From NCBI RefSeq assembly GCF_013201725.1, contig NZ_CP053835.1, positions 2,170,001 to 2,234,000 of the forward strand: a DNA stretch of 64,000 nt, in the 5' to 3' direction. The translations under genes were made by a program, and so were the position numbers. Within the stretch, counting starts at the first letter, position 1. The number at the start of each line of letters is the position of its first letter. The notes below the pieces were generated by a model. That model worked only from the letters and a program-made list of their open reading frames with translations. It was not told the origin of the DNA and searched no databases. Below, piece by piece: positions 14,050 to 63,374 of this stretch. The stretch is from Arcobacter defluvii (GTDB taxonomy: Bacteria; Campylobacterota; Campylobacteria; Campylobacterales; Arcobacteraceae).

Positions 14050-14448
14050 TTATAATCTATTAAATTTATCTTCTAATTGTTTCAGTTTTACATATGAATT
14101 TGCTTTTGTAATTAACTCTATGTTGATAAAAGGCTTTACAACATAATCAAGCCCTCCACTTTCATAAGCTTGTTCTATATCTTGAGTTGAATCTTTTCCT
14201 GATAAAAAAATTACTGGAATATTTTTTGTTTTTTCATCACTTTTTAATTTAGAACAAACTGTAAAACCATTCATATCAGGCATCATAATATCAAGTAAGA
14301 TTAAATCAAAATCATGTTCATTTACAAGTTTTAATGCCATTTCCCCACTTTTTGCATAATACATTTTATGACCTTCATTTTTTAAAATATTCATTGCCAT
14401 TTGAATATTTTTAGGTACATCATCAACTATCAATATTTTACTTTCCAT
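14050..14448 (-). CDS. single-domain response regulator (CheY-like)
   Basis: Stand-alone receiver of about 132 residues with no output domain. Acidic pocket is ILIVDDVPKN, phospho-Asp lies in DLILLDIMMPDMNGFTV, then VIFLSGKDS and Lys in YVVKPF. An in-frame TTG at 14454 has a better-placed ribosome site (AAGGTAAAACTTG) than the ATG at 14448, so either start is possible. It overlaps or abuts the hybrid-kinase stop. It likely relays phosphate between the sensor upstream and the receiver/pseudokinase downstream. Confidence 0.88.
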   Translation of the reverse strand: MESKILIVDDVPKNIQMAMNILKNEGHKMYYAKSGEMALKLVNEHDFDLILLDIMMPDMNGFTVCSKLKSDEKTKNIPVIFLSGKDSTQDIEQAYESGGLDYVVKPFINIELITKANSYVKLKQLEDKFNRL

Positions 14449-17400
14449 TTTCAAGTTTTACCTTTAAGTTATCAATTAATTCTATATAAGTATTCATTAA
14501 ATAATCAACTTTCTCAATATCAAAAGCTTCAATATTTTTTAATAATTCTGAAGAATAATCTTTTAATAAATAAATATCTTTTTGTATTGATAAATCATAT
14601 AATTTCTGTGCAAATTCTTCAATTAAAGAGAAATCTCCTCCATCTTTAATCTCTTTCCATTCATCTCTTAACTCATTTTCTAATTTATCAATAACTTCTT
14701 GCAATTTTTTAATATCAATAACTTTATAAATATCTTTTTCTAGAAAATCTTCATTTACAAAAAAATATTTTAAATATTTACCTAACTCTTCTATTAAATC
14801 ATCTAAAATAACAGGTTTTCTTAAATATCCATCAAAACCATATTTTGACACTTTTTCTAAATCTTTTCCCATAACAGAAGCTGTAAGAGCAATCAAAGGA
14901 ATATTTTTTAATCTTTCATCATTTTTTATTATTACAGCAGCTTCATATCCATCCATTATAGGCATTCTTAAATCCATAAGTATTAAATCAACATTTATAT
15001 TTTTTAATTTATCTAAAGCTTCTTGCCCATTATTAGCCATTATCAAATCTATATCATAATCTTTCAAACTTGCTTGTACTAACTTTCTATTCTCTTCTAC
15101 ATCATCAACTACTAATATTTGTGCTTTTTCAAAAGCAATATTTGAAGCTGATAATTTATTTGAATTAGTTTTTTCTTCCATAGAACTAACAGGAATATCT
15201 CGCAAAATTACTCTAAAAATAGAGCCTCTATTTTTTTCACTTTGAACCTCTATTTCACCATTCATCATATGAACAAGCTTTGCACAAATTGCAAGACCTA
15301 AACCTGTCCCACCATATTTTGCAACATCTTGATTTTTCACTTGTTCAAAAGCATTAAAAATTGATTTTAGATTATTCCCATCTATACCAATTCCAGTATC
15401 TTCAACACTAAAAATCAAATCTATTTTACTTTTTATATTATCTTTATATACATTTTCAACTTTTAGTTTTATGTAACCTTTTTCTGTAAATTTAATCGCA
15501 TTTCCAATTAAATTAAATAAAATTTGTCTTATTCTTACACCATCCATTATTATATACTTTGGTATTGTTTTATCAATTTCTACAATAAAAGTTATATTTT
15601 TACTTATAATTTTTGAATGAAAAATAGATTCAATTTCTAAAAACATATTTGTAGGGTTTATTGATTCTTGTTTTATTTCAAGCTTTCCTGCTTCAATTTT
15701 TGAAAGATCTAAAATATCATTTATAATTCTTAATAAAGAATCTCCTCCTTTTTTTATAGAACTCAAATACTCTTTATGCAAAGGATTTTGTATTTCTTTA
15801 TCTAAAATTTCTGTAAATCCAATAACAGAATTCATAGGAGTTCTTATTTCATGGCTCATATTTGCCAAAAACTCACTCTTTTGTCTAGCGATATTTTCAG
15901 CTACATCTTTTGCTTTTTTTAATTCTTCATTTAAAGAATTTATATTATTTCTCTCTTTTTCTAGCTCTTTTTGGATTTTTTCTTTTTCTTTTATCTCTTG
16001 TTTTAGTTTTCTATTCCAATAAAAAATTATGCTTAGAATAATAAAAGATATAACACTTATTTTCCAGATTAAATCATAATCAATATTTTTTCCACTATCA
16101 ATTTTTATCCATTTTCTATAAATTTCATCTTTTCTATCTTGGGGAATATGTTTTAAAATTTTATTCATAATTGATACTAAAATAATATTGTCTTTTTCAA
16201 CACCAAATCTATATTCAGTGTTGTATCCAGTAATTCCAACTATTTTTAAATTACTTAAACTATATATTTTGCTGTAATAATCAAAAGTTGGGATATCTAA
16301 TATAAAATAATCTATCATACCTGTTGATAATGCTTTTAATCCTTCTGGTATATCTTTAAAAGTACCAAAAATTTCTAAATCAGGATTATCTCTTTTTATC
16401 ATTTCAGTTATAAAATGCCCTTCAACCAAACCTAGTGTTTTATTTTTTATATTTTCTAAATCTTTTATGGAACTTATATATCTTTCATTTTTTTTATTTC
16501 CAATAATTACAATTTGAGAAGAAAAATATTTTGAAGTAAAATCTAAGATTTTTGACATTGAAGGAGTTATTGTAACAGCATCAAGTATTTTTATTTCTTT
16601 ATTTTTTAGTAAATTAACAGAATCTTGCCAACTATTTGTATCAAGATGTGAAAAATTAATTCCACTAACTTCTTTTAATAAATTTAACATATCAGGAATA
16701 ATTCCAACATATTTGCCATCTTCATAAAAAGAAAAAGGTGGCCATTTGGGATCACCAGATAAATATATTATTGGATTTTGTTTTAACCAATCCAATTCTT
16801 CTTTTGAGAAATTTATTAATCTTTCTTTTGATTCATTCTCTAATATCCATTTTTTATTTATTTTATCTTTTTCTTCTTCGCTAATACTATCAAGAACTTT
16901 TTGAATTATGTCAAATAAAATTTTATTCTCTTTTAAAACTGCTATTGATAACTTTGCACTTTCAAAATCTGATTTCATCTTTATTTCTAAATTTGTAAGT
17001 AAATCTTTTTCTATAAAATATGTAACAACAGCCAAATTTCCTAAATAAAAATCTGCTTTTCCATAAGAAATAGCTTTAAAAGCTTCTTCATTTGACTTAA
17101 CAAAATAAAACTTCATATTAGGAAACATTCTAGATAAATCTTCATATATATAATTGTTTTTTTGAACAGCTACTTTATAATTTTTTATTTCATCAAAAGT
17201 ATTAAGTTTTAAATCTTTTCTTCCAACAACAACGATTTCAACATCTAAATAAGAATCTGTAAAATTAAGATAACTTTCTCTTTGAGAAGTTTTTGCAGCA
17301 CAAGCTAATAAATCTAGCTCTTTTTTTTGAATTTTATCTAATACATTTATCCAAGCATCAGAATATATATCAAATCTTAAACCTGTATATTTAGTTATAA

Positions 17401-17608
17401 GATTTAAATATTCAGAAGAGACTCCTTGATGTTGACCAGTTATATCTATGTAGTCAAAAGGAGGCCAATTTGCATCTACCCCTACTTTTATTTTGGGATT
17501 ATTTTTTATCCAAGTTAATTCTTCTTTTGTAAAAATTAAATTATTATCTCTTTCAACATTACAGAAAAGCACAGAAACAAATAGTAGTAAAAAAGTTATA
17601 TATTTCAT
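14438..17608 (-). CDS. BvgS-like hybrid sensor histidine kinase with two periplasmic solute-binding domains
   Basis: 1056 residues. After a signal peptide come two consecutive SBP_bac_3 (Venus-flytrap) domains, each starting with the LTWIKNNPKIKVGVDANWPPF type motif (about residues 28-255 and 270-500). A transmembrane helix (about 510-530), a coiled coil, HisKA (EFLANMSHEIRTPMNSVIGF), HATPase (NAIKFTEKG, DTGIGI, GGTGLGLAI) and a receiver (LVVDDVEEN, LILMDLRMPIMDGYEA) follow. The final roughly 100 residues are helical but contain no histidine, so there is no functional HPt. It senses an unknown small ligand in the periplasm. Confidence 0.92.
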   Translation of the reverse strand: MKYITFLLLFVSVLFCNVERDNNLIFTKEELTWIKNNPKIKVGVDANWPPFDYIDITGQHQGVSSEYLNLITKYTGLRFDIYSDAWINVLDKIQKKELDLLACAAKTSQRESYLNFTDSYLDVEIVVVGRKDLKLNTFDEIKNYKVAVQKNNYIYEDLSRMFPNMKFYFVKSNEEAFKAISYGKADFYLGNLAVVTYFIEKDLLTNLEIKMKSDFESAKLSIAVLKENKILFDIIQKVLDSISEEEKDKINKKWILENESKERLINFSKEELDWLKQNPIIYLSGDPKWPPFSFYEDGKYVGIIPDMLNLLKEVSGINFSHLDTNSWQDSVNLLKNKEIKILDAVTITPSMSKILDFTSKYFSSQIVIIGNKKNERYISSIKDLENIKNKTLGLVEGHFITEMIKRDNPDLEIFGTFKDIPEGLKALSTGMIDYFILDIPTFDYYSKIYSLSNLKIVGITGYNTEYRFGVEKDNIILVSIMNKILKHIPQDRKDEIYRKWIKIDSGKNIDYDLIWKISVISFIILSIIFYWNRKLKQEIKEKEKIQKELEKERNNINSLNEELKKAKDVAENIARQKSEFLANMSHEIRTPMNSVIGFTEILDKEIQNPLHKEYLSSIKKGGDSLLRIINDILDLSKIEAGKLEIKQESINPTNMFLEIESIFHSKIISKNITFIVEIDKTIPKYIIMDGVRIRQILFNLIGNAIKFTEKGYIKLKVENVYKDNIKSKIDLIFSVEDTGIGIDGNNLKSIFNAFEQVKNQDVAKYGGTGLGLAICAKLVHMMNGEIEVQSEKNRGSIFRVILRDIPVSSMEEKTNSNKLSASNIAFEKAQILVVDDVEENRKLVQASLKDYDIDLIMANNGQEALDKLKNINVDLILMDLRMPIMDGYEAAVIIKNDERLKNIPLIALTASVMGKDLEKVSKYGFDGYLRKPVILDDLIEELGKYLKYFFVNEDFLEKDIYKVIDIKKLQEVIDKLENELRDEWKEIKDGGDFSLIEEFAQKLYDLSIQKDIYLLKDYSSELLKNIEAFDIEKVDYLMNTYIELIDNLKVKLENGK

Positions 17609-17663
17609 TTTAAGCCTTTCTTTAAAAGTTAAAACAAAATATTATAACATAAAAAAATATTTT

Positions 17664-18278
17664 TTAAAAAACTATAAACTCTTCTTCTAAAATTATTTTA
17701 TTATCAAAAAGTATTCTTCCAAGAAAAACATCTCCAACTTTAAATAAACCAACACCTTTAGGTGTTCCGCTCATTAAAATATCACCATCTTCAAAACTTA
17801 AAAATGTTTTTGCTTCATTTATAATCTCATTTGGTTTATTTATCATCAAAGAATAATCACCTTTTTGTTTTAATTCACCATTTATGTAAAGTTCAATTTC
17901 TAATTTTGAAATATCTTTATCAAAACTAATAAATTTTGAAAAAACAGCAGCTCCATCAAAAGCCTTTGCTCTTTCCCAAGGTAAACCTTTTGCTTTTAAT
18001 TTACTTTGAACTTCTCTTAGTGTTAAATCTAAACCAAATCCAACAGCGCTTATTTTATCATCTTCAATTAAAAATGAAATCTCAGCTTCATAATGACAAG
18101 AATTTTGATTTTTAGGAAAAACCAATCTATTTGAAACTGCTGAATTTGGTTTAATAAAAAATACCATATCTTCTGGAACTTCGTTATTAAGTTCATTTAT
18201 ATGATCCATATAATTCCTTCCAATACAAACAACTTTTGATGGAATTATTTCAATATCATCTAAAAATATTTTATTCAT
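17664..18278 (-). CDS. fumarylacetoacetate hydrolase (FAH) family protein
   Basis: 204-residue cytoplasmic enzyme of the FAH fold, which hydrolyses or decarboxylates acylpyruvate-type 2-oxo compounds. Visible features are VCIGRNYMDHINELN, the metal-ligand motif HYEAEISFLI, GLDLTLREVQ, KAFDGAAVFS and MSGTPKGVG. It is compact, resembling YcgM/FAHD1 enzymes. It lies 14 nt after the TauE/SafE permease gene. Substrate cannot be told; oxaloacetate decarboxylase or acylpyruvase activity are the known options for this size class. Confidence 0.9.
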   Translation of the reverse strand: MNKIFLDDIEIIPSKVVCIGRNYMDHINELNNEVPEDMVFFIKPNSAVSNRLVFPKNQNSCHYEAEISFLIEDDKISAVGFGLDLTLREVQSKLKAKGLPWERAKAFDGAAVFSKFISFDKDISKLEIELYINGELKQKGDYSLMINKPNEIINEAKTFLSFEDGDILMSGTPKGVGLFKVGDVFLGRILFDNKIILEEEFIVF

Positions 18279-18292
18279 AATTTTCTCTTCTT

Positions 18293-19096
18293 TTAAATAA
18301 ATGTAAGTAACATTTTAATACTTAAAAGCATTAATAAACAAGCAAATACTTTTTTTACAATTCCAACTGGTAAAATATGTACCAATTTAACACCAATTGG
18401 TGCAGTTAGAAAACTAAAAAAAGCAACTATTGCAAATGCAGGCAAAGATACATAACCTAAAATTAAATCATCCAAATTTGTGTGAGACCAACCATTTATC
18501 ATATAACCTAATGTTCCACTTATTGCTATTGGTAAACCAATAGCAGCACTTGTACCTATAGCTTTTTTAAGTTCTACATTTTGCCATAATAAATAGGGAA
18601 CACTAAGAGAACCTCCACCAATAGAAACCATTGCTGAAATTGCTCCAATTAAAGAACCAGAAAAAAACTGAATAATAGGAGAGAAAAGAGTTCTACTTGG
18701 TTTTGGCTTTTTATTTAAAAACATTTGAATAGAAACATATGCCATAAAAACTGAAAAGAATATGGCCAAAAATAACGAACTTAAAATTGAAGCTAAAAAG
18801 GTAGCTAAAAATGTTCCTATTAAAACTCCAGGTGCCATCATCTTAACAACATCCCAAAGAACACCTTGTTTTTTATTATGTGCTCTTAAACTAGAGATTG
18901 AAGTAATAACAATAGTTGCCATTGAGGTTCCTAGTGCTAAATGTACAACATTTTCACTAGAAATCCCTTGTGCTAAAAATAAAGCTGTTAATACTGGAAC
19001 TATTATTCCACCTCCACCTATTCCTAATAAACCTGCTGCTATCCCTACTATAATACCTAATAAAGCATAAGCAATTAAAAATTCTAATCCAAACAT
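18293..19096 (-). CDS. TauE/SafE-family sulfite/anion exporter
   Basis: 267-residue polytopic membrane protein with about eight helices in two repeats. The repeat hallmarks are GIAAGLLGIGGGGIIVP near the N-terminus and GAISAMVSIGGGSLSVPYL in the second half. The family exports sulfite, sulfonates or organic anions. Coupling to an FAH-type hydrolase gene could mean export of a small organic acid, but that is conjecture. Confidence 0.92.
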   Translation of the reverse strand: MFGLEFLIAYALLGIIVGIAAGLLGIGGGGIIVPVLTALFLAQGISSENVVHLALGTSMATIVITSISSLRAHNKKQGVLWDVVKMMAPGVLIGTFLATFLASILSSLFLAIFFSVFMAYVSIQMFLNKKPKPSRTLFSPIIQFFSGSLIGAISAMVSIGGGSLSVPYLLWQNVELKKAIGTSAAIGLPIAISGTLGYMINGWSHTNLDDLILGYVSLPAFAIVAFFSFLTAPIGVKLVHILPVGIVKKVFACLLMLLSIKMLLTFI

Positions 19097-53662: not shown

Positions 53663-53900
53663 TTTATTCACTCCGATATATTTTTATGTAACCATTATAC
53701 AGTTTTAAAGTATAAGAACTATTGAAAGAAAAACTCTTTCGTTATTTAATAACAATTCGATTACAATTAACAAGCTTTTAATAATTTGTTATGTAAACTT
53801 CGTCTTTAAGTTATGGGGATGACTTGGTATCGATTAGAGCAGTGAGTATTAGTTGCATGTCGGCCTGAACATGCCGTTACGCGGTTCATTTTTTTTAGAC

Positions 53901-53945
53901 GCAAACAATACAAATTACGCTCCAGCTTACGCAAAAGCTGCGTAA
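53901..53945 (+). other. tmRNA proteolysis-tag coding segment
   Basis: Fourteen codons plus TAA within tmRNA give ANNTNYAPAYAKAA. The ANN...APAYAK-AA pattern is that of Campylobacterota tags and is a taxonomic clue. The first codon GCA is the resume codon. Confidence 0.92.
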
Positions 53946-54180
53946 GTTTAACAACTTATTGACTCGCCTAACGGCTTGAGTCTCGGAGGCTAGCACTACA
54001 GATTCTATCTATGTAGATTATCGCTGGTTCACCCTAGATAGATTATTTTTGAAGGATTGATTGAACTTCAAAAAGAAATTCCAAATCTTAGCTTTTTGAT
54101 TGCTTCGGGAGTTGAGTTGTCATTAAGTGAAATTTTTCAACTCTGCTAAGCATGTAGACGCTAATATAAGCTGTTTTAAG

Positions 54181-54210
54181 ACTGCGGTTCGATCCCGCAC
54201 ATCTCCACCA
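54181..54210 (+). other. probable island attachment site in the tmRNA 3' end
   Basis: The T-arm and acceptor end of tmRNA abuts the integrase gene 143 bases downstream. Tyrosine integrases very often use this part of tmRNA as att core. The tmRNA remains intact, as expected after integration. I see no second copy up to base 64000. Confidence 0.65.
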
Positions 54211-54324: not shown

Positions 54325-54330
54325 CAAATC

Positions 54331-54351
54331 AGGTTACTAATAGGTTACTAA
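54331..54351 (+). repeat. direct repeats before the integrase, candidate arm sites
   Basis: AGGTTACTAA occurs twice in 21 bases (54331-54340 and 54342-54351), one helical turn apart and immediately upstream of the integrase start codon. Such spacing fits arm-type integrase or excisionase sites. Confidence 0.45.
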
Positions 54352-54352
54352 A

Positions 54353-55453
54353 ATGGCATATGTAAATTCAAAAAAATTTGGCTCTACTGTTCAACATTAT
54401 AAAAAAGAAAATGGTGATATTAGTTATTACATTACATACAAAGATGAATTTAACAAATTAAAAAGAATTAAAGTTGGTGATAAATCACAAGGTATAACTG
54501 AACCTTATTGCAATAGAAAAAGAAATGAGATTTTAAATAAAATTAGATTGGGAGAAGATATTCCAATCAAACAAAAAAAGAGAGATTCTACAACGCTTAA
54601 TAGCATTGCAGAAATATATTTTACAGATAAAAAATCAGCTGAAAAAAGAAAATCAAAATATGATATCCACATCAAGCCAGTTTTTGGAAATTCAAATGTA
54701 AATAGCATTAAAAGAGAAGATATTTTAAACTTTAGAAACCACATACTAGAAAAAGGAAAATCTTTACAAACAGCAAAAGGAATTATCCAATTAATTTCTA
54801 CTATTTATAATTATAATATTCAAGAAAAATCACTAAAAATATTTAATCCTGCAATTGGGATAAAATGGGATAAACAATATAAGATAGATAATACAAGAGA
54901 AAAATATCTTGACCTAAATGAGATTAAATTATTACTCTCTAAAATATCAAACAACCCTACTCTTTTATTGTTTGTAGAGCTTTCACTACAAACGGGTGGA
55001 AGATTAGAAACTATCTTACATATTCAGAAAAAACATATAAATTTTCAAGAGGGTTCAATTCAACTAAAAAATCTAAAAACAAATGACACATACACAGGTT
55101 TTATTCAAGATGAACTATCAAATAAATTAAAAGAAATTTGTGAGAAATTAAATGTAAATGACTATGTTGTACATTTTGAGAAAGGTAAAAAATCTACATC
55201 AAGACAAATTCAGAATCGTTTACAACCCATAATAAATGACCTTTTTAATCAAGGTTTAGAAAAAGATGATTCTAAAAATAGAACTGTAATTCACACACTA
55301 AGACACACTTTTGCATCTCATTTAGCAATTAATGGAACTCCTATTTTTACAATAAAAGAGTTAATGAATCACTCTGATATTGAACAAACAATGAGATATG
55401 CAAAACTTGCTCCTGATTCTGGGAAAAAGAATGTACTTAATCTTTATAAGTGA
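54353..55453 (+). CDS. tyrosine recombinase / phage integrase
   Basis: 366 residues. An N-terminal arm-binding domain (STVQHYKKENGDISYYITYK), a SAM-like core-binding domain (about 80-165) and a catalytic domain with Arg in LQTGGRLETIL (about R217), HTLRH (H314, R317, H318), MNHSD and the nucleophile in MRYAKL (about Y349). All catalytic residues are present, so it should be active. It sits next to tmRNA and should integrate and excise the island. Confidence 0.95.
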   Translation: MAYVNSKKFGSTVQHYKKENGDISYYITYKDEFNKLKRIKVGDKSQGITEPYCNRKRNEILNKIRLGEDIPIKQKKRDSTTLNSIAEIYFTDKKSAEKRKSKYDIHIKPVFGNSNVNSIKREDILNFRNHILEKGKSLQTAKGIIQLISTIYNYNIQEKSLKIFNPAIGIKWDKQYKIDNTREKYLDLNEIKLLLSKISNNPTLLLFVELSLQTGGRLETILHIQKKHINFQEGSIQLKNLKTNDTYTGFIQDELSNKLKEICEKLNVNDYVVHFEKGKKSTSRQIQNRLQPIINDLFNQGLEKDDSKNRTVIHTLRHTFASHLAINGTPIFTIKELMNHSDIEQTMRYAKLAPDSGKKNVLNLYK

Positions 55454-55742: not shown

Positions 55743-57002
55743 ATGGACCCTCAGCAAAAAGATAGAATGATAAATTCTATAATAAATCAGTTACAAATAA
55801 AAGATGTTGTTATTAAAGATAAAATGTTTAAAATAGTTAATGAAGCTATTTTAGTTAATTACGATTCACTTAAGTTGTTAGCTAAAAGTCTCAAGAATAT
55901 TTTAGAAATTCAACATAGTAAAATATTGAATGTAATAGCTAAATCTTTAGGTTATCAAAATCATCATTCTATGAAAGCTAGTTTTGATAAATTAAATTCT
56001 AAAGATTTAAAAATACAAATAAATGAAAATGATTCAGTTTTAAAGAAGCTTTTTTTAATTAAAGATGAGTTTATAAAAAAATTTGGGATTGAAAAAACTT
56101 ATATTTTAAGTGTACCATCTAACAAATTTGAATTCAATTTTGTATTTAATAAAAAAGGCTTAACTTTAAGAAGTAAAGAAAAAATAGAAATAAATAGATA
56201 TTTGAATTCTTATGGAATTGAAGTATATAAAACTTACATTACTATTTCTAAAATATCTAAAGATAGTTTAATAAAAATAGCATTTAATATCCTAAATAAA
56301 TATAAGAGCTTTTTTGAGCCAATTTGGTATGAAAATAATGATAAGTTAAATAATTATATCCATTTAACAAAAAATTGGTCTATGCTCTCTTATATTGATA
56401 TAAAAATAATTAATAATTCTTTAATAGTTGATAGTTATTCAAGTGATTTAGCTGATAAAGTAATCATCAATTTTTTAGACTATATTTTTAATTTTGGTAC
56501 TTTAAAGGATATTGAATTTTTTGAGAATTGTTTAAAACAAAGTACCATATTAATTTCTAAAAAAGATATTAATAAACTTGAAGATTTAGCAAGAGTTTAT
56601 GATTGGGAAAATCAACAGATTTTAAGTTCTTTTATAAAAAGTGGAACTGAAGATATTGGAGAAACTCTTGAAGATATTAATTATACCATTTCAATAATGG
56701 AATACATGAGAACTCCTTTAAAACAAATTGAAATTACTAATAATAAAACTATTAAAGAGATCATTATTGATAACTGTGTTTATTTTTATAATTTGGGAAA
56801 TAAATATAATAAGAATATCATTAAAGAAAAGCTATTTATAGAGTTATTAAAAAAAGAAAAAAAAGATTATTTTGATATGATGGAAGATATTGAGGATACT
56901 GATATTTACTTAACTCATCACAATATATGCAATAGTATAGAGAAAATCACTGATGAGATTTTTAATTTTTTGAATATGTATAAAAACTCAAAAAATATTT
57001 AA
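55743..57002 (+). CDS. unknown island protein with mobile-element-type N-terminal helical domain
   Basis: 419 residues, no signal peptide or membrane helix. AAGGACATACACA precedes the ATG. Residues about 38-80 (LKLLAKSLKNIL... NVIAKSLGYQNHHSMKASF) resemble the short N-terminal domain annotated as glyoxalase-related in plasmid and ICE proteins, where the pattern is L..AK.L........S...L..IA...GY.....L.A. The rest is alpha/beta with Ile, Lys and Asn bias, and no catalytic motif that I recognise. It stands alone between a promoter and a strong hairpin. Confidence 0.75.
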   Translation: MDPQQKDRMINSIINQLQIKDVVIKDKMFKIVNEAILVNYDSLKLLAKSLKNILEIQHSKILNVIAKSLGYQNHHSMKASFDKLNSKDLKIQINENDSVLKKLFLIKDEFIKKFGIEKTYILSVPSNKFEFNFVFNKKGLTLRSKEKIEINRYLNSYGIEVYKTYITISKISKDSLIKIAFNILNKYKSFFEPIWYENNDKLNNYIHLTKNWSMLSYIDIKIINNSLIVDSYSSDLADKVIINFLDYIFNFGTLKDIEFFENCLKQSTILISKKDINKLEDLARVYDWENQQILSSFIKSGTEDIGETLEDINYTISIMEYMRTPLKQIEITNNKTIKEIIIDNCVYFYNLGNKYNKNIIKEKLFIELLKKEKKDYFDMMEDIEDTDIYLTHHNICNSIEKITDEIFNFLNMYKNSKNI

Positions 57003-57173: not shown

Positions 57174-57929
57174 TTATTTTTTATATTTACCTCTATCAGT
57201 CAATAATGTTGTATTATTAATTATTTGTAAAATACAAATAATTATTGTAATTAGAATTACACTAGAAGCAATATTGATAATATACATAAATTCTCTTTTA
57301 TTTATTTTTTCATCTTCTATTGTTTCTATAAATTTTATTTCTTTGGGTAAAAATAAATTTGAAACAGATTTCACAAATTTTTCATGTTCTTCAAGTAATT
57401 TTTCTTTATCATTCAATGAATTTTCTATTTTTAGTTTATATCCTTCTGTATTTAACATAATAATATCTTTTGTTGTAATATAAAGCATTATAGACATTAA
57501 TACAATAACTGACGCAAACATTTTTAATGCATTTATTGATAAATTTATATCTTCTTTGGTATTTGTTTTAAACATAAAAATAAATATACTACTTACAAAT
57601 AACATACTAAAACTAATAACATTTTTAATAGATTCTCTATAATCCATATAAATTGTAGAAAGAAGAATAGTAATAAAAGATAATCCTAACATCAATATTA
57701 AGATTCTTTTTAAATAATTTATATTATTTCCTAACCATTTATTCAGTTCTACTTTAATTATTATAATATATAAAACTACTAATACTATTATGTTGAACAA
57801 TATAAATATATTTTTATTTATGTTTGGGAAAGGTAAATATATCAAGAACAAGAAAAAAAATAATGTACCTATAAAAGAAAAAAGCAAAATTTTTTTTGCA
57901 AAATTTTTTTCTCTAAGTATATTTAACAT
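57174..57929 (-). CDS. six-helix membrane protein of unknown function
   Basis: 251 residues with about six transmembrane segments: ILLFSFIGTLFFFLFLIYL, IFILFNIIVLVVLYIII, ILMLGLSFITILLSTIY, SMLFVSSIFIFMF, MFASVIVLMSIMLYIT and, after a hydrophilic loop (NDKEKLLEEHEKFVKSV), VILITIIICILQII. No known family is recognised. It is the last gene of the - strand island run, 107 bases after the DUF726 hydrolase fragment. Confidence 0.7.
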   Translation of the reverse strand: MLNILREKNFAKKILLFSFIGTLFFFLFLIYLPFPNINKNIFILFNIIVLVVLYIIIIKVELNKWLGNNINYLKRILILMLGLSFITILLSTIYMDYRESIKNVISFSMLFVSSIFIFMFKTNTKEDINLSINALKMFASVIVLMSIMLYITTKDIIMLNTEGYKLKIENSLNDKEKLLEEHEKFVKSVSNLFLPKEIKFIETIEDEKINKREFMYIINIASSVILITIIICILQIINNTTLLTDRGKYKK

Positions 57930-58036: not shown

Positions 58037-58909
58037 TTATACTTGTAAAATTTTGTTTAAATTTTGTTTATATTCTGTGTGTCCTTTTATATATTCTGTT
58101 ACATCAATATTATCAATTTTTTCATTTTCTATAGGATGTCTACCAATGGGATCTCCAAATTCAAATTTAACTCCTTCTCCTACTTTGTAAAGTGTTTGTA
58201 GAACCGTATCATTTTTACTATAATAGTTTCTTATCTTACCACTTACACTATTATGGAGTTCACTCCAACATACTCTACTATCATCATTTTCACAATTTTT
58301 ATCAACGGCTCCACCTAGAAGATGAACATCTTTAATAAAATATTTATCTTTGGTTTTTAAAGAGGCTAAACATGAATAAATAACTCTAGCTCCTAGAGAA
58401 TGTCCAATCAAAATATACTCTTTATCTGTTCTTGCTATAATATCAGCTAATAATGCTCCTGTTTGGTATGCTTTTATACTTGCAACCGACCATGGATTTG
58501 TTGCTAATCCTAAAGTTTGAATAGCTAAACCTAAAGGTGCAACTTTTGTAGCAACAGCCTTTGAAGCAGATAAAGTAGCTTTAAGAGTAGTATTCTTTAA
58601 ACCTTCACTACTTATTACCTGACCAAATGAAGTTACTAAACTCATTAATCTTTTTGATTCCCATTTAACATAATAAATAGTGTTTTTTTTATATTTTTCT
58701 TCTAATCCATCAATCCAAGGTTGAGTTGCATTTTTATTTTCTTCATTTAAAAAACCATCAATACAAATAATGATTGGTTCAATACCTGGCTTGATTTTTA
58801 CTATTTCAAATCCATCAATATCCCCAAAATAACTATTAGATATAACTGCTCCATAACGACCACCTAAAGCACTTCCAGGTAACAACAGCAACTCCTCCTG
58901 CCATTCCAA
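58037..58909 (-). pseudogene. DUF726-like alpha/beta hydrolase, C-terminal part of a frameshifted gene
   Basis: Carries the hydrolase core: SALGGRYGAVISNSYFGDIDG, IICIDGFLNEENK, YYVKWESKRLM, the nucleophile elbow LIGHSLGARV and a late His in DPIGRHPIEN. Its apparent first residues (MEWQEELLLLPG) come from a TTG with no usable ribosome site and are out-of-frame translation of the Gly/Ala-rich segment of the upstream frame. Removing one base near 58875-58880 joins both frames as VAVVT-GSALGGRYG. Real coding in this frame therefore starts around 58876. Confidence 0.82.
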
Positions 58910-59594
58910 ACCCTCCAGCTGCTAATGCACCTCCTCCAAGGGTTGCCAATCCTGCATTTGTTGCAGCTGCACCAGAATATCCTAAAATACTACTAGCTCC
59001 TATAGCACCACCTATAGCTGGTGCCGCCAAGAAAGCAAGGGGAGCTATTACAGCTGCTCCCCCAAGAGTAAAAGCAGCTGTAGTTCCAATCTTTTTGTAA
59101 TTTAGTTCCGTTCTTTCAACAATATCACGATACTCACCTATACTTTCTAAAGACCAATTTAGAGATTCAAATTTTGCAATTTGTCCTTCATGAACAGCAC
59201 AAAAATTATTAGACCACATACCAATATTTTCATCTTTAAGCTCTGAATATTTTGCTTTATTATTACACGCTCTACATTTAACAATTTCATGTCCGCAGCC
59301 ATCACAAATATAAATATTTCTAGATAAATTATTCTTTTCTTTTAGTGTACAAGTATGAATTTCAAAGCACCATGAACAATAACTTTTTATTTGTTCTAAT
59401 CCTGAATCTAAAAATTTATCAGACATACTTTCAAGATTATCTTGAGCTGCTTTTTTGGTTTTATTTGCAATATCATTTACATTATCTAATATTTGATTTG
59501 GAATATTTTCTTTAATTGAATCTGAAGTATTTTCTACAGCTTCTTTGGCTTTTTTAGCAATCTCTTCTGCTTTTTTCTTTAAATTACTTAACAT
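58836..59594 (-). pseudogene. DUF726-like protein, N-terminal zinc-ribbon part of a frameshifted gene
   Basis: 252-residue open frame. A Lys/Ala/Asp-rich amphipathic N-terminus (about 1-70) precedes a zinc-binding segment (CSWC, CDGCGHEIVKCRAC). Hydrophobic Gly/Ala-rich helices follow (GTTAAFTLGGAAVIAPLAFL to AAGGFGMAGGVAVVT), like the membrane-inserting part of DUF726/TMCO4 proteins. After VAVVT the frame runs into unrelated WKCFRWSLWSSYI and stops, while the expected continuation is found one base out of frame. The intact protein would be about 518 residues. Confidence 0.82.
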
Positions 59595-59628: not shown

Positions 59629-59799
59629 TTAAATAAATTTATCAATATTTTTTCTTTCCATTTTATTTCCACACTTTGAACAAACTGGACTCATCGCTAT
59701 TAAATCTTTAGGACTAAAAGCATCACTTCGAGGAGCAACAATTTTGCTAGAACCACAATTTGGACATACTAGTTTATATGGATTTGGTTGAATAGCCAT
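59629..59799 (-). CDS. small zinc-ribbon protein
   Basis: 56 residues: starts MAIQPNPYKLVCPNCGSSKI, then VCSKCGNKMERKN. Two CxxC knuckles spaced by 24 residues form a zinc ribbon. AAGGAG lies 9 nt upstream of the ATG. It sits between the secreted-protein genes and the zinc-ribbon hydrolase gene on the same strand, so it may share their transcript. Function unknown. Confidence 0.8.
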   Translation of the reverse strand: MAIQPNPYKLVCPNCGSSKIVAPRSDAFSPKDLIAMSPVCSKCGNKMERKNIDKFI

Positions 59800-59825: not shown

Positions 59826-60587
59826 CTAATTTAAAGTATAGAAATATGAGCCATAATTTGTCTCAATTTGTATTTCTAATATACGTTTACATTCCCATGC
59901 CATTACCTCTAAAGAATCAAATTTATCTAATTCTAATGGATACTTTGGAACTTTATTTATTATCCTATTTTTTCTTATTATAGGCATTAAATCTGTTTCA
60001 CAATTTCCTCCATTAACAATTACATTATTTATTGTTAAATTTGCATCTAAAGAATTTATTTCAAAAAGAGCATTTTTAGGTGTTTTACTTGTTTTTACAT
60101 AAATTTCCATTGGATTTTCTGGTTTAATAAGTGGTAAATTATTTTTCTTTGATGAATTATTCTTAGAATTAGATATAAATTGAGTACATATAGTTAATAA
60201 ATTATTAAGCTCACTTGTAGAATTTGTTGGCTCAAAATAAAAACCTCCTATAGATGAAGCTACATAAAATCTATCTGCTGTTTGTAAATATTTTAATATT
60301 TCATTCCAATTCGAAATATCATCTATATTTTTTACATTAAGAGGAGAAGCAAATGTTCTTCTTACATTATCAATAGACATAATAGCATACACATTCGTTG
60401 GATTTATTTTTCCTATAGAATCTTTTAATAAAACTGAACTTTGTTTTTTGTTACAACTAATTTCAAATACTTGGTTTTTTTCATTTTTGATTGAGAATAT
60501 ATTAGTTCCCTGAATATTACTACTCTGCCACACATCTGCAATTAATACACTACAAAAAAATAGTATTATTGATATACTTTTTTTCAT
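59826..60587 (-). CDS. secreted protein with one two-cysteine envelope module
   Basis: 253 residues with a signal peptide (SISIILFFCSVLIADVW). Residues about 30-140 form a module that starts NIFSIKNEKNQVFEISCNKK and ends FYFEPTNSTSELNNLLTICTQF. The same module occurs twice in the next upstream gene. The C-terminal 100 residues contain another cysteine pair (GGNC, WECKR). No known family is recognised; the two module cysteines could form a periplasmic disulfide. Confidence 0.78.
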   Translation of the reverse strand: MKKSISIILFFCSVLIADVWQSSNIQGTNIFSIKNEKNQVFEISCNKKQSSVLLKDSIGKINPTNVYAIMSIDNVRRTFASPLNVKNIDDISNWNEILKYLQTADRFYVASSIGGFYFEPTNSTSELNNLLTICTQFISNSKNNSSKKNNLPLIKPENPMEIYVKTSKTPKNALFEINSLDANLTINNVIVNGGNCETDLMPIIRKNRIINKVPKYPLELDKFDSLEVMAWECKRILEIQIETNYGSYFYTLN

Positions 60588-60656
60588 TTTTTATCCTTTT
60601 TCTATTTTAATATTTTTATTTCTCTAAATAATGATTTCTTTTTTATTAATAAACTT

Positions 60657-61547
60657 TTACATTGTATATTCCGTACAACTCTCAACAATACCTTCTAATA
60701 TTTTTTGAGAATTTACTGGCTCAAAAGTATATTTTTTACCATTTTCAGCCTCTATTACAAAATGTTTAGAATTTTGTAACCAATACATAAAATTACTCCA
60801 AGCTGTATCATCACTACTTGTTCTTTCATCTATGCTAATATGAGTTGGTGTAATTATTTTTCTTTCACCATCAAAAATTACATTAATAACTCCTCCTAAT
60901 CCAATTTCAGAATCCATTAAATTAATACTTCCACCTTCAAAGTTACAAGCGATTTCTAATCTACTATTATTCTTATTAGATATGTGATACAGTGAATTCC
61001 CTTGATGCCATCCATTTTCCCAAAAATCTTTAGATTCTGAAACTTGATTATTTGTTTGTATATTTTCCTTCTCTTCAGAACTTGATTTACTGTAACAATC
61101 TTCAAAAACATTAATTAAATCTTTTGAGTTCTTAGGAGTAAACATAAACATATTATTTTCAGCTTTAACAAAGATATTATTTGCATCTGTTAGCTCATGT
61201 AAAAAATAGTTAAAATTATGTGTTTCTTCTTCTGATGATATATTTTTATATATCATAGTTGGAAAAATTGTCGATTTTTTACCATTTAAAGATACAGTAA
61301 TATTATCAGTAGTATAACTTTTATTATCACTACCCAATAAACCTATCAATGCAATTTCTTTATCACAAGTAAGCATAAGGCTTTCATCTTTAGTATTTTT
61401 TAAAGTGTATACCGAAATTTCCTTAGTTTTTACAATATCCCATTTATCTTTTGTAAATAAACTATTTGCAGCATTTTTCAAATTACCTAATTTATCATCT
61501 GCAAACAAACTACCTATTAACAATACTAAAATTAGTAACTTATTCAT
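60657..61547 (-). CDS. secreted protein with two tandem two-cysteine envelope modules
   Basis: 296 residues from ATG 61547 (GGGGGA 7 nt upstream; the frame extends to 61562). Signal peptide LLILVLLIGSLFADD. Module 1 runs from ISVYTLKNTKDESLMLTCDKE to FMFTPKNSKDLINVFEDCYS; module 2 from SLYHISNKNNSRLEIACNFE to YTFEPVNSQKILEGIVESC. Both share the pattern Y-x-(K/N)N...L-x-(C), T/P-rich middle strand, (F/W)-x-YFLH or YWLQ, F-x-P-x-NS and a terminal cysteine. It is a paralogue of the downstream gene. Confidence 0.78.
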   Translation of the reverse strand: MNKLLILVLLIGSLFADDKLGNLKNAANSLFTKDKWDIVKTKEISVYTLKNTKDESLMLTCDKEIALIGLLGSDNKSYTTDNITVSLNGKKSTIFPTMIYKNISSEEETHNFNYFLHELTDANNIFVKAENNMFMFTPKNSKDLINVFEDCYSKSSSEEKENIQTNNQVSESKDFWENGWHQGNSLYHISNKNNSRLEIACNFEGGSINLMDSEIGLGGVINVIFDGERKIITPTHISIDERTSSDDTAWSNFMYWLQNSKHFVIEAENGKKYTFEPVNSQKILEGIVESCTEYTM

Positions 61548-61915
61548 ATATTTATCCCCCATTTTCCTTTTGCAAATTTCACTTCATCACTATTGGGATT
61601 TGTAAAATGCCATCCTAATTCTAAATAGTTTTTAGCTGTCATTTCATTACCTTTTATTCCTAACCAAATTTGTAAACCTAAGAAAACTAAATTTAATACA
61701 ATAATCAATCCCAATGATTCTTCTTCATCATACATCATTGAAGGAGCAATAATATAAACAATCCCTAGAGATAATAGTATTCCTCCCCAAATATATAACC
61801 TTCTTAAAAATAATGGTAATCCAAAGAAACTAGAAAATAGAAATAATATCCAGCTCCATCCTACTTTAATTTCTTTTACTTCTCCAGTTTTTGGATTAGT
61901 CATCTCAATTTTCAT
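61544..61915 (-). CDS. small membrane protein, DUF2628-like
   Basis: 123 residues. KVGWSWILFLFSSFFGLPLFLRR, two further hydrophobic segments and the tail IKGNEMTAKNYLELGWHF resemble the DUF2628-type pattern, a buried SW-F-F-x-P start and KGN...K.L...G end. It overlaps the start of the two-module secreted protein gene, so the pair is probably translationally coupled. Function unknown. Confidence 0.7.
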   Translation of the reverse strand: MKIEMTNPKTGEVKEIKVGWSWILFLFSSFFGLPLFLRRLYIWGGILLSLGIVYIIAPSMMYDEEESLGLIIVLNLVFLGLQIWLGIKGNEMTAKNYLELGWHFTNPNSDEVKFAKGKWGINI

Positions 61916-62694: not shown

Positions 62695-63297
62695 TTAATT
62701 CTTATCTACACTTCTTGGTCTTCCTACATTACTTTTATTCTTAGGTGCAATACCCCTTGTAAAAGCTCTATCTTTAGTATTTGTTTTTAAAGAGTCTATA
62801 CTTTGTTCATCTTTACACAAATAAGTTAATACTTTTTCATCAAAAAGCTTTCTTTTATTTTCATCATTATACTCTATCACTCCAATAGCCTTATTTTCTT
62901 TATAATCGTTTTGATTACAATTGTGATAAATTCCCCTACCCTTTGCAATGTTATCTTTCCAATACTCTCCTATTTTTTTACCTTTTGTAACATCCTCCCT
63001 AACTTTTTGACCATCATAGATTGCTAACATATGAAAATGAACTCCTTTATCTTCTCCTACTTCTTTTTTTGCCACATAACCAACCATTCCTTCAAATACT
63101 GTTGGTTTCGATCTTTTATTATTTAACATTGTTTTAAAATTCTTATTAGCCTCTTCTAAAGTTACATTATCCTTATGTTCTTTTTTATAACCTAAATCTA
63201 CCCTAACCATATTCAATCTTGAATAATTTTTTGATAAGTCATCTATATACTTTTTTGTACTTTCCAATCTTTGGTTAGTTTTTTTGTTTTCTTTCAT
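62695..63297 (-). CDS. inovirus Gp2-like protein (YagK/YfjJ domain, HUH motif)
   Basis: 200 residues from ATG 63297 (AAAGGA 6 nt upstream; TTG at 63303 also in frame). RLNMVRVDLGYKKEHKDNVT, GYVAKKEVGEDKGVHFHMLA with HFH at about 87-89, WKDNIAKGRGIYHNCN, IGVIEYND and the late YLCKDEQSI followed by GRPR fit the Inovirus Gp2 / YagK-YfjJ family. The HUH-type histidine pair and the tyrosine in YLCKDEQ suggest a rolling-circle replication initiator-like fold. This implies a phage-satellite or prophage origin for this end of the island. Confidence 0.82.
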   Translation of the reverse strand: MKENKKTNQRLESTKKYIDDLSKNYSRLNMVRVDLGYKKEHKDNVTLEEANKNFKTMLNNKRSKPTVFEGMVGYVAKKEVGEDKGVHFHMLAIYDGQKVREDVTKGKKIGEYWKDNIAKGRGIYHNCNQNDYKENKAIGVIEYNDENKRKLFDEKVLTYLCKDEQSIDSLKTNTKDRAFTRGIAPKNKSNVGRPRSVDKN

Positions 63298-63374
63298 TTT
63301 CAATCCTTTATATTTATATTTTTATTCATATAAAGTTTTGAATACAGAGTGATCAATAAATTAATGATTATAAA

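Follow-up and report, generated by a model that had tools for sequence, protein, structure and literature searches.

Three copies of a two-cysteine module in adjacent genes

The 64,000-nt stretch of Arcobacter defluvii DNA that was analyzed (contig NZ_CP053835.1, positions 2,170,001 to 2,234,000 of the forward strand; hereafter the window) carries two adjacent genes whose products, designated A and B, share a module with two cysteine residues. An earlier note on this DNA had placed the module once in A and twice in B, and the coordinates, the alignment and the Smith-Waterman Z-scores (9.8-17.5) bore this out. The genes and domains are as follows:

59826..60587, minus strand: gene of protein A (253 amino acid residues; signal-like N-terminus, probable YfjT/YkfB-family module, linker, VNxGNC domain)
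60165..60536, minus strand: module copy 1, in A (C45/C134 of A)
59829..60101, minus strand: VNxGNC C-terminal domain of A (C196/C233)
60657..61547, minus strand: gene of protein B (296 amino acid residues; signal-like N-terminus, two modules)
61083..61460, minus strand: module copy 2, B1 (C61/C151 of B)
60660..61034, minus strand: module copy 3, B2 (C201/C291 of B), nearest to the copies of other genomes; predicted local distance difference test (pLDDT) score of 82 with AlphaFold2

The B gene has a further in-frame ATG upstream, at 61562. Both proteins start with a hydrophobic, signal-like sequence (MKKSISIILFFCSVLIAD; MNKLLILVLLIGSLFAD), as judged by eye and without a signal predictor. Each module contains two cysteine residues and no more; A adds C12 in the signal region and C196 and C233 in the C-terminal domain. 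The description of an exported domain with one conserved cysteine pair was supported.

The three copies are homologous, well above chance. When they were compared pairwise by BLASTP, E-values of 2e-8, 8e-15 and 1e-9 were obtained, and the Smith-Waterman scores lay 9.8, 17.5 and 10.9 standard deviations above those of shuffled sequences, with none of 2,000 shuffles matching the real score. The end-to-end alignment of the modules contained 13 invariant columns, including W, both cysteines and F-x-P-x-N-S, and the clearest invariants among the copies were D, W, N, the two cysteines and F-x-P-x-NS. Of the motif description in the earlier note, the cysteines and the F-x-P-x-NS end were retained, and the Y/F-x-(I/L)-x-N strand at the start was found to be more weakly conserved than claimed.

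Relation to YfjT/YkfB, phage-borne members and predicted fold

Plain sequence searches with A and B against Pfam, NCBIfam, PHROG and PDB returned nothing useful, and a profile built from the three copies retrieved relatives in a few Campylobacterota genomes. The bridge to a larger family was a single-module protein of 152 amino acid residues from another genome of the same genus (G008), which matched island genes on Klebsiella and E. coli plasmids and ykfB of E. coli K-12 (E 9e-13 to 8e-9). In some records, the RefSeq product name of these relatives is ‘YfjT/YkfB family phage-associated protein’; YfjT and YkfB are proteins of the E. coli cryptic prophages CP4-57 and CP4-6. A profile trained on gammaproteobacterial and single-module members, with the window copies left out, recognized B2 and A (E 2e-15 and 2e-10; Z=1), and the reverse profile, from the window side, recognized YkfB (E 6e-11). 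Overall, the YkfB-side and window-side profiles detected each other's members at E-values of 2e-15 to 3e-6 (Z=1), with B1 below the filter, and the two sides were aligned by hhalign with a profile-profile probability of 97%. PHROG 3429, a family of unknown function, was matched by 30 of the 32 aligned members (best E 1.8e-15). Because B2 alone reached only E 0.029 against PHROG 3429, membership of the window copies depends on intermediate relatives, although it was consistent in every direction. The W and both cysteines were present in every complete row of the family alignments, and the F of the final strand was conserved too. Neither NCBIfam nor Pfam holds a model for the YfjT/YkfB module. 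Taken together, the profile comparisons indicate that the modules of A and B very probably belong to the YfjT/YkfB (PHROG 3429) family, and the feature is thus read as a divergent, multi-module and fused form of a known but uncharacterized mobile-element family. No known family had been recognized in the earlier note, a statement that no longer stands.

A search of Campylobacterota, to which the earlier note had also pointed, was performed with a 10-member profile and revealed the module in 6 of 397 genomes, representing 2 of 68 genera. Weak matches in seven further genomes (G025, G083, G235, G252, G290, G311 and G340) were dropped, as none reached E 1e-3 with the better profile, and a match in G037, which overlaps secretion-type genes and contains two stop codons, was judged to be due to chance. 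Relatives were also found on 27 viral contigs and in environmental Aeromonas and Zobellella. B2 is ∼44% identical to single-module proteins of other genomes, and in a tree of 17 sequences it joined the single-module proteins of G302 and G353 with weak support (0.58), whereas A joined B1 (0.83); the two modules of a G013 protein paired together (0.98), which looks like an independent doubling. Given that the tree places B2 away from A and B1 and the G013 modules together, the window copies diverged deeply and long ago, and proteins with two modules probably have more than one origin. The expansion by duplication proposed earlier was therefore qualified: a duplication, if there was one, is old, or else separate acquisition accounts for some of the copies.

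The family also has phage-borne members. A P1-like Punavirus carries one (E 2e-7 to YkfB). On L067, a viral contig, the module gene, together with a gene for a membrane protein of 96 amino acid residues, is flanked by an ejection-protein gene (PHROG 342, E 3e-108) on one side and by Arc-like, Ant and tail genes on the other. Phage P22 has sieA next to mnt and gene 9 after gene 16, and its SieA protein prevents the injection of DNA through an effect on the ejection proteins (PMC10883804). With the P22 order mapped onto L067 by gene order and PHROG names, not by alignment of the two phages, the L067 module would, in our reading, stand in the place corresponding to P22 sieA, the superinfection exclusion gene.

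The structure of B2 was predicted by AlphaFold2 from a 32-row alignment (pLDDT 82; predicted template-modeling score 0.77). The model is a confident, beta-rich fold in which some six strands are followed by a helix, two more strands and a short helical part at the C-terminus. The helix of the earlier note was thereby moved: one helix precedes the last two strands, and helical turns follow them. The model of A showed a module with the same elements, at lower confidence in mid-module. When PDB was searched with the B2 model using Foldseek, IalB (3dtd) came first (E 0.02, probability 0.85). VIA realignment gave Z-scores of 7.7 and 7.2 for the MotY N-domain (8z5n and 2zf8; chain B of 8z5n was taken as MotY from the aligned range and the entry title), 6.9 for IalB and 4.8 for the next entry, all in the range below 8 that can reflect a common arrangement. 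For the module part of A, IalB was the best match (Z 6.5), so that the models of both modules rank it among their top matches, in line with the same fold across copies. FERM-domain rows at Z ∼3.5 were regarded as background. The models suggest that the module may be related to IalB and the MotY N-domain, and the IalB Pfam model (PF06776) gave no match to the module up to E 1 (E 5 in one search). Two viral predicted structures were clearly matched: the nearest was the ‘putative adhesin’ of a Serratia phage (E 2.7e-6, TM 0.74), and the other was a protein of a Vibrio phage (E 1.3e-4, TM 0.63).

The VNxGNC domain and the surrounding island

Beyond its module, A continues with a polar linker and a second, unrelated domain, unmentioned in the earlier note, that carries a VNxGNC motif and another cysteine further on. 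No Pfam or NCBIfam model exists for this domain, and a search of viral contigs gave no match to it. In a genome of the same genus (G011), it stands alone as an exported protein of 124 amino acid residues, whose gene (L012 1071-1469) adjoins one for a small, cysteine-containing secreted protein that presumably resembles LprI/DUF1311. A VNxGNC gene directly follows a YfjT-like gene in a Plesiomonas island, and one again follows a YfjT-like gene in Klebsiella aerogenes. Fusions of the module to the VNxGNC domain were found in four Campylobacterota proteins (A, one of G302 and two of G353). As a recurrent neighbor pair that is fused elsewhere, the module and the VNxGNC domain are suggested to work together. 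Outside the module, the whole-A model matched mostly immunoglobulin domains (Z up to 6.5), in a region with a pLDDT of 31-72; this is only a hint that the VNxGNC domain may be immunoglobulin-like.

The VNxGNC domain also forms the end of an E. coli island protein of 261 amino acid residues and of an Acinetobacter protein of 253, both with other N-termini. Its range extends from Campylobacterota to Gammaproteobacteria, and it is often found within CP4-type islands, either by itself or with varied N-terminal fusions (L012, L043, L044, L116, L117, L118). The YfjT-like gene beside the VNxGNC gene of K. aerogenes (L116 7396-7767) has an unrelated tail at its end, with an apparent frameshift.

A and B are carried by an island of about 19.2-19.3 kb between direct repeats, inserted beside the tmRNA gene, with the left repeat directly before the start codon of the integrase gene:

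53815..54210, plus strand: tmRNA gene (ssrA)
54329..54352, plus strand: 24-bp direct repeat, probable attL; repeated exactly beyond the window, at genome 2243565-2243588
54353..55453, plus strand: tyrosine integrase of the island
59629..59799, minus strand: zinc-ribbon protein of 56 amino acid residues, just downstream of A
61544..61915, minus strand: small membrane protein of 123 amino acid residues, directly upstream of B; matches PHROG 4915 (unknown function)
62695..63303, minus strand: YagK/YfjJ C-terminal-domain (inovirus Gp2-type) protein, common to CP4-type islands

DUF932, Rad52-family, DUF5906 and DUF2958 proteins are also encoded in the island. A homolog of the zinc-ribbon gene lies directly after the A-like gene in G302, which indicates a conserved pair. 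The island shares DUF932 and YfjJ-type genes with the gammaproteobacterial and viral module loci (49 and 8 matches), and an integrase is shared as well. CP4-type cassette genes (GTPase, DUF932, WYL, antirestriction, RadC, CbtA/YeeU) were present near the module in 37 of 44 gammaproteobacterial loci; ykfB itself is followed by DUF905, antirestriction and RadC genes.

A DUF726 alpha/beta hydrolase gene (58037-58909 and 58836-59594) is split over two frames near 58886, with the Pfam match continuing across the open reading frames (ORFs), and its first part matched the PADLOC candidate PDC-M09A (E 1e-10). The gene occurs in one frame in G032 and also in two pieces in G069; the split in the window may be due to mutation, sequencing error or a programmed frameshift. 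At the G008 locus (L037 10260-11382), an AbiEii-type nucleotidyltransferase gene (Pfam E 1e-15) and a small partner gene stand beside the module gene; the window island has two genes of similar appearance at its right end (genome 2242172-2243424). Island ORFs with no significant Pfam or PADLOC match are located at 55743-57002 (419 amino acid residues) and 57174-57929 (251) of the window, and at 14117-14962 (281) and 17064-18578 (504) of L119.

Proposed role of A and B

We tentatively regard A and B as exported, element-encoded envelope proteins that would act for the mobile element, perhaps via superinfection exclusion; the chance of this reading as a whole is put somewhat below even. Given established Sec biology and the signal-like N-termini, both proteins would be exported to the periplasm by Sec, where the invariant cysteine pair would form one disulfide per module, between the cysteine of the N-terminal half and the C-terminal one, in the oxidizing environment. 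The module may then serve the element as a binding scaffold in the envelope, where the VNxGNC domain would be its recurrent partner, and repeated modules would multiply or diversify the binding sites. Superinfection exclusion could come about if the module docked on a receptor in the envelope or on the machinery with which an incoming phage injects its DNA. Exclusion is the best-supported specific role because of the mobile distribution, the member in the sieA slot and the phage-encoded proteins of the same fold; as the function of the A and B modules, it is possible, at roughly one chance in three. Wider still, and more doubtful, is the proposal that YfjT/YkfB-type domains, alone, in tandem or with VNxGNC, might form an unrecognized and widespread class of periplasmic exclusion proteins on an IalB/MotY-N-like scaffold, extending from Campylobacterota to Gammaproteobacteria and over CP4-type islands and P1-like, P22-like and other phages.

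Several observations weigh against a role in exclusion. No PADLOC model, that is, of the known anti-phage systems, matched A or B, and the literature yielded no functional study of YfjT or YkfB. Location is no proof of defense, since toxin-antitoxin and maintenance genes are found in CP4 cassettes as well. IalB and MotY, the solved structures with the nearest folds, have other roles. For the sieA slot, the evidence is a single phage architecture, read in contig L067, with L068 matched at the same coordinates.

Other roles were considered. A function as secreted factors, directed at a eukaryotic host or at other cells as with Bartonella IalB or E. coli IrmA, would accord with IalB as the top solved fold in Foldseek. 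In addition, irmA belongs to the flu-yeeR-irmA-aec70-aec71-yeeS cluster of the CP4-44 region (PMC6480617), a position that resembles that of ykfB ahead of DUF905, antirestriction and RadC genes. However, the module and VNxGNC profiles found no IalB or IrmA sequence in PDB, and the relatives in phages and in environmental Aeromonas and Zobellella argue against a dedicated host role, so that such a function appears unlikely. The island and position of IrmA also raised it as a possible homolog. This was not supported: its entry (5EK5) was absent from the module and VNxGNC profile matches at E up to 10.

A domain for the periplasmic assembly or anchoring of an envelope machine of the element, comparable to what the MotY N-domain is in the T ring of the flagellum, is a little less probable still: the MotY N-domain gave the highest VIA-align scores, but a common arrangement can produce values below 8, none of the island ORFs examined was recognized as a flagellar or conjugation gene, and A and B are without the peptidoglycan-binding domain of MotY, which is OmpA-like (no OmpA-family Pfam match in either protein). 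Improbable, too, and a little more so, is that A and B are periplasmic immunity or inhibitor proteins against an envelope-active enzyme, for example the neighboring DUF726 hydrolase or a lysozyme or lipase of foreign origin. The hydrolase gene lies two genes downstream of A, and in G302 a patatin-like phospholipase gene is found within ∼2 kb of the A-like gene, but the DUF726 gene of the window is frameshifted, and its product, with a zinc-ribbon N-terminus and no obvious signal peptide, looks cytoplasmic; moreover, DUF726 and the module were together in no other genome of the family searched, and CP4 loci are without such enzymes beside the module.

The orphan prophage genes yfjT and ykfB are present in the E. 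coli K-12 genome with no assigned function. Through the window, their products are tied to multi-domain versions in another phylum, and also to a predicted IalB/MotY-N-like fold, a partner domain that recurs as neighbor or fusion, and the exclusion slot of a P22-like phage. With these ties, the two genes of a laboratory strain become directly testable candidates.

Compared with known systems, the P22 SieA locus is similar in that a phage-encoded module stands in the corresponding place in L067, a likeness known from gene order and not from sequence relation. IalB (Bartonella invasion-associated protein B, 3dtd) aligned over 100 residues with 16% identity to the module at the VIA Z-score given above, and the MotY N-domain over 113-114 residues with 6-7% identity. 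IrmA of pathogenic E. coli is likewise a small secreted protein of a CP4-44-type island, but has a fibronectin-III-like fold. With YfjT/YkfB, the modules share the W-xx-G...Y-x-I...I-x-C start, the helix, the F-x-P/L strand, the final cysteine and a signal-like N-terminus, as well as the island or phage setting with DUF932 and YfjJ-type genes. YfjT/YkfB proteins are single modules of ∼155 amino acid residues, most with an extra loop after the first cysteine, whereas the window copies are without this loop, doubled in B and fused to the VNxGNC domain in A.
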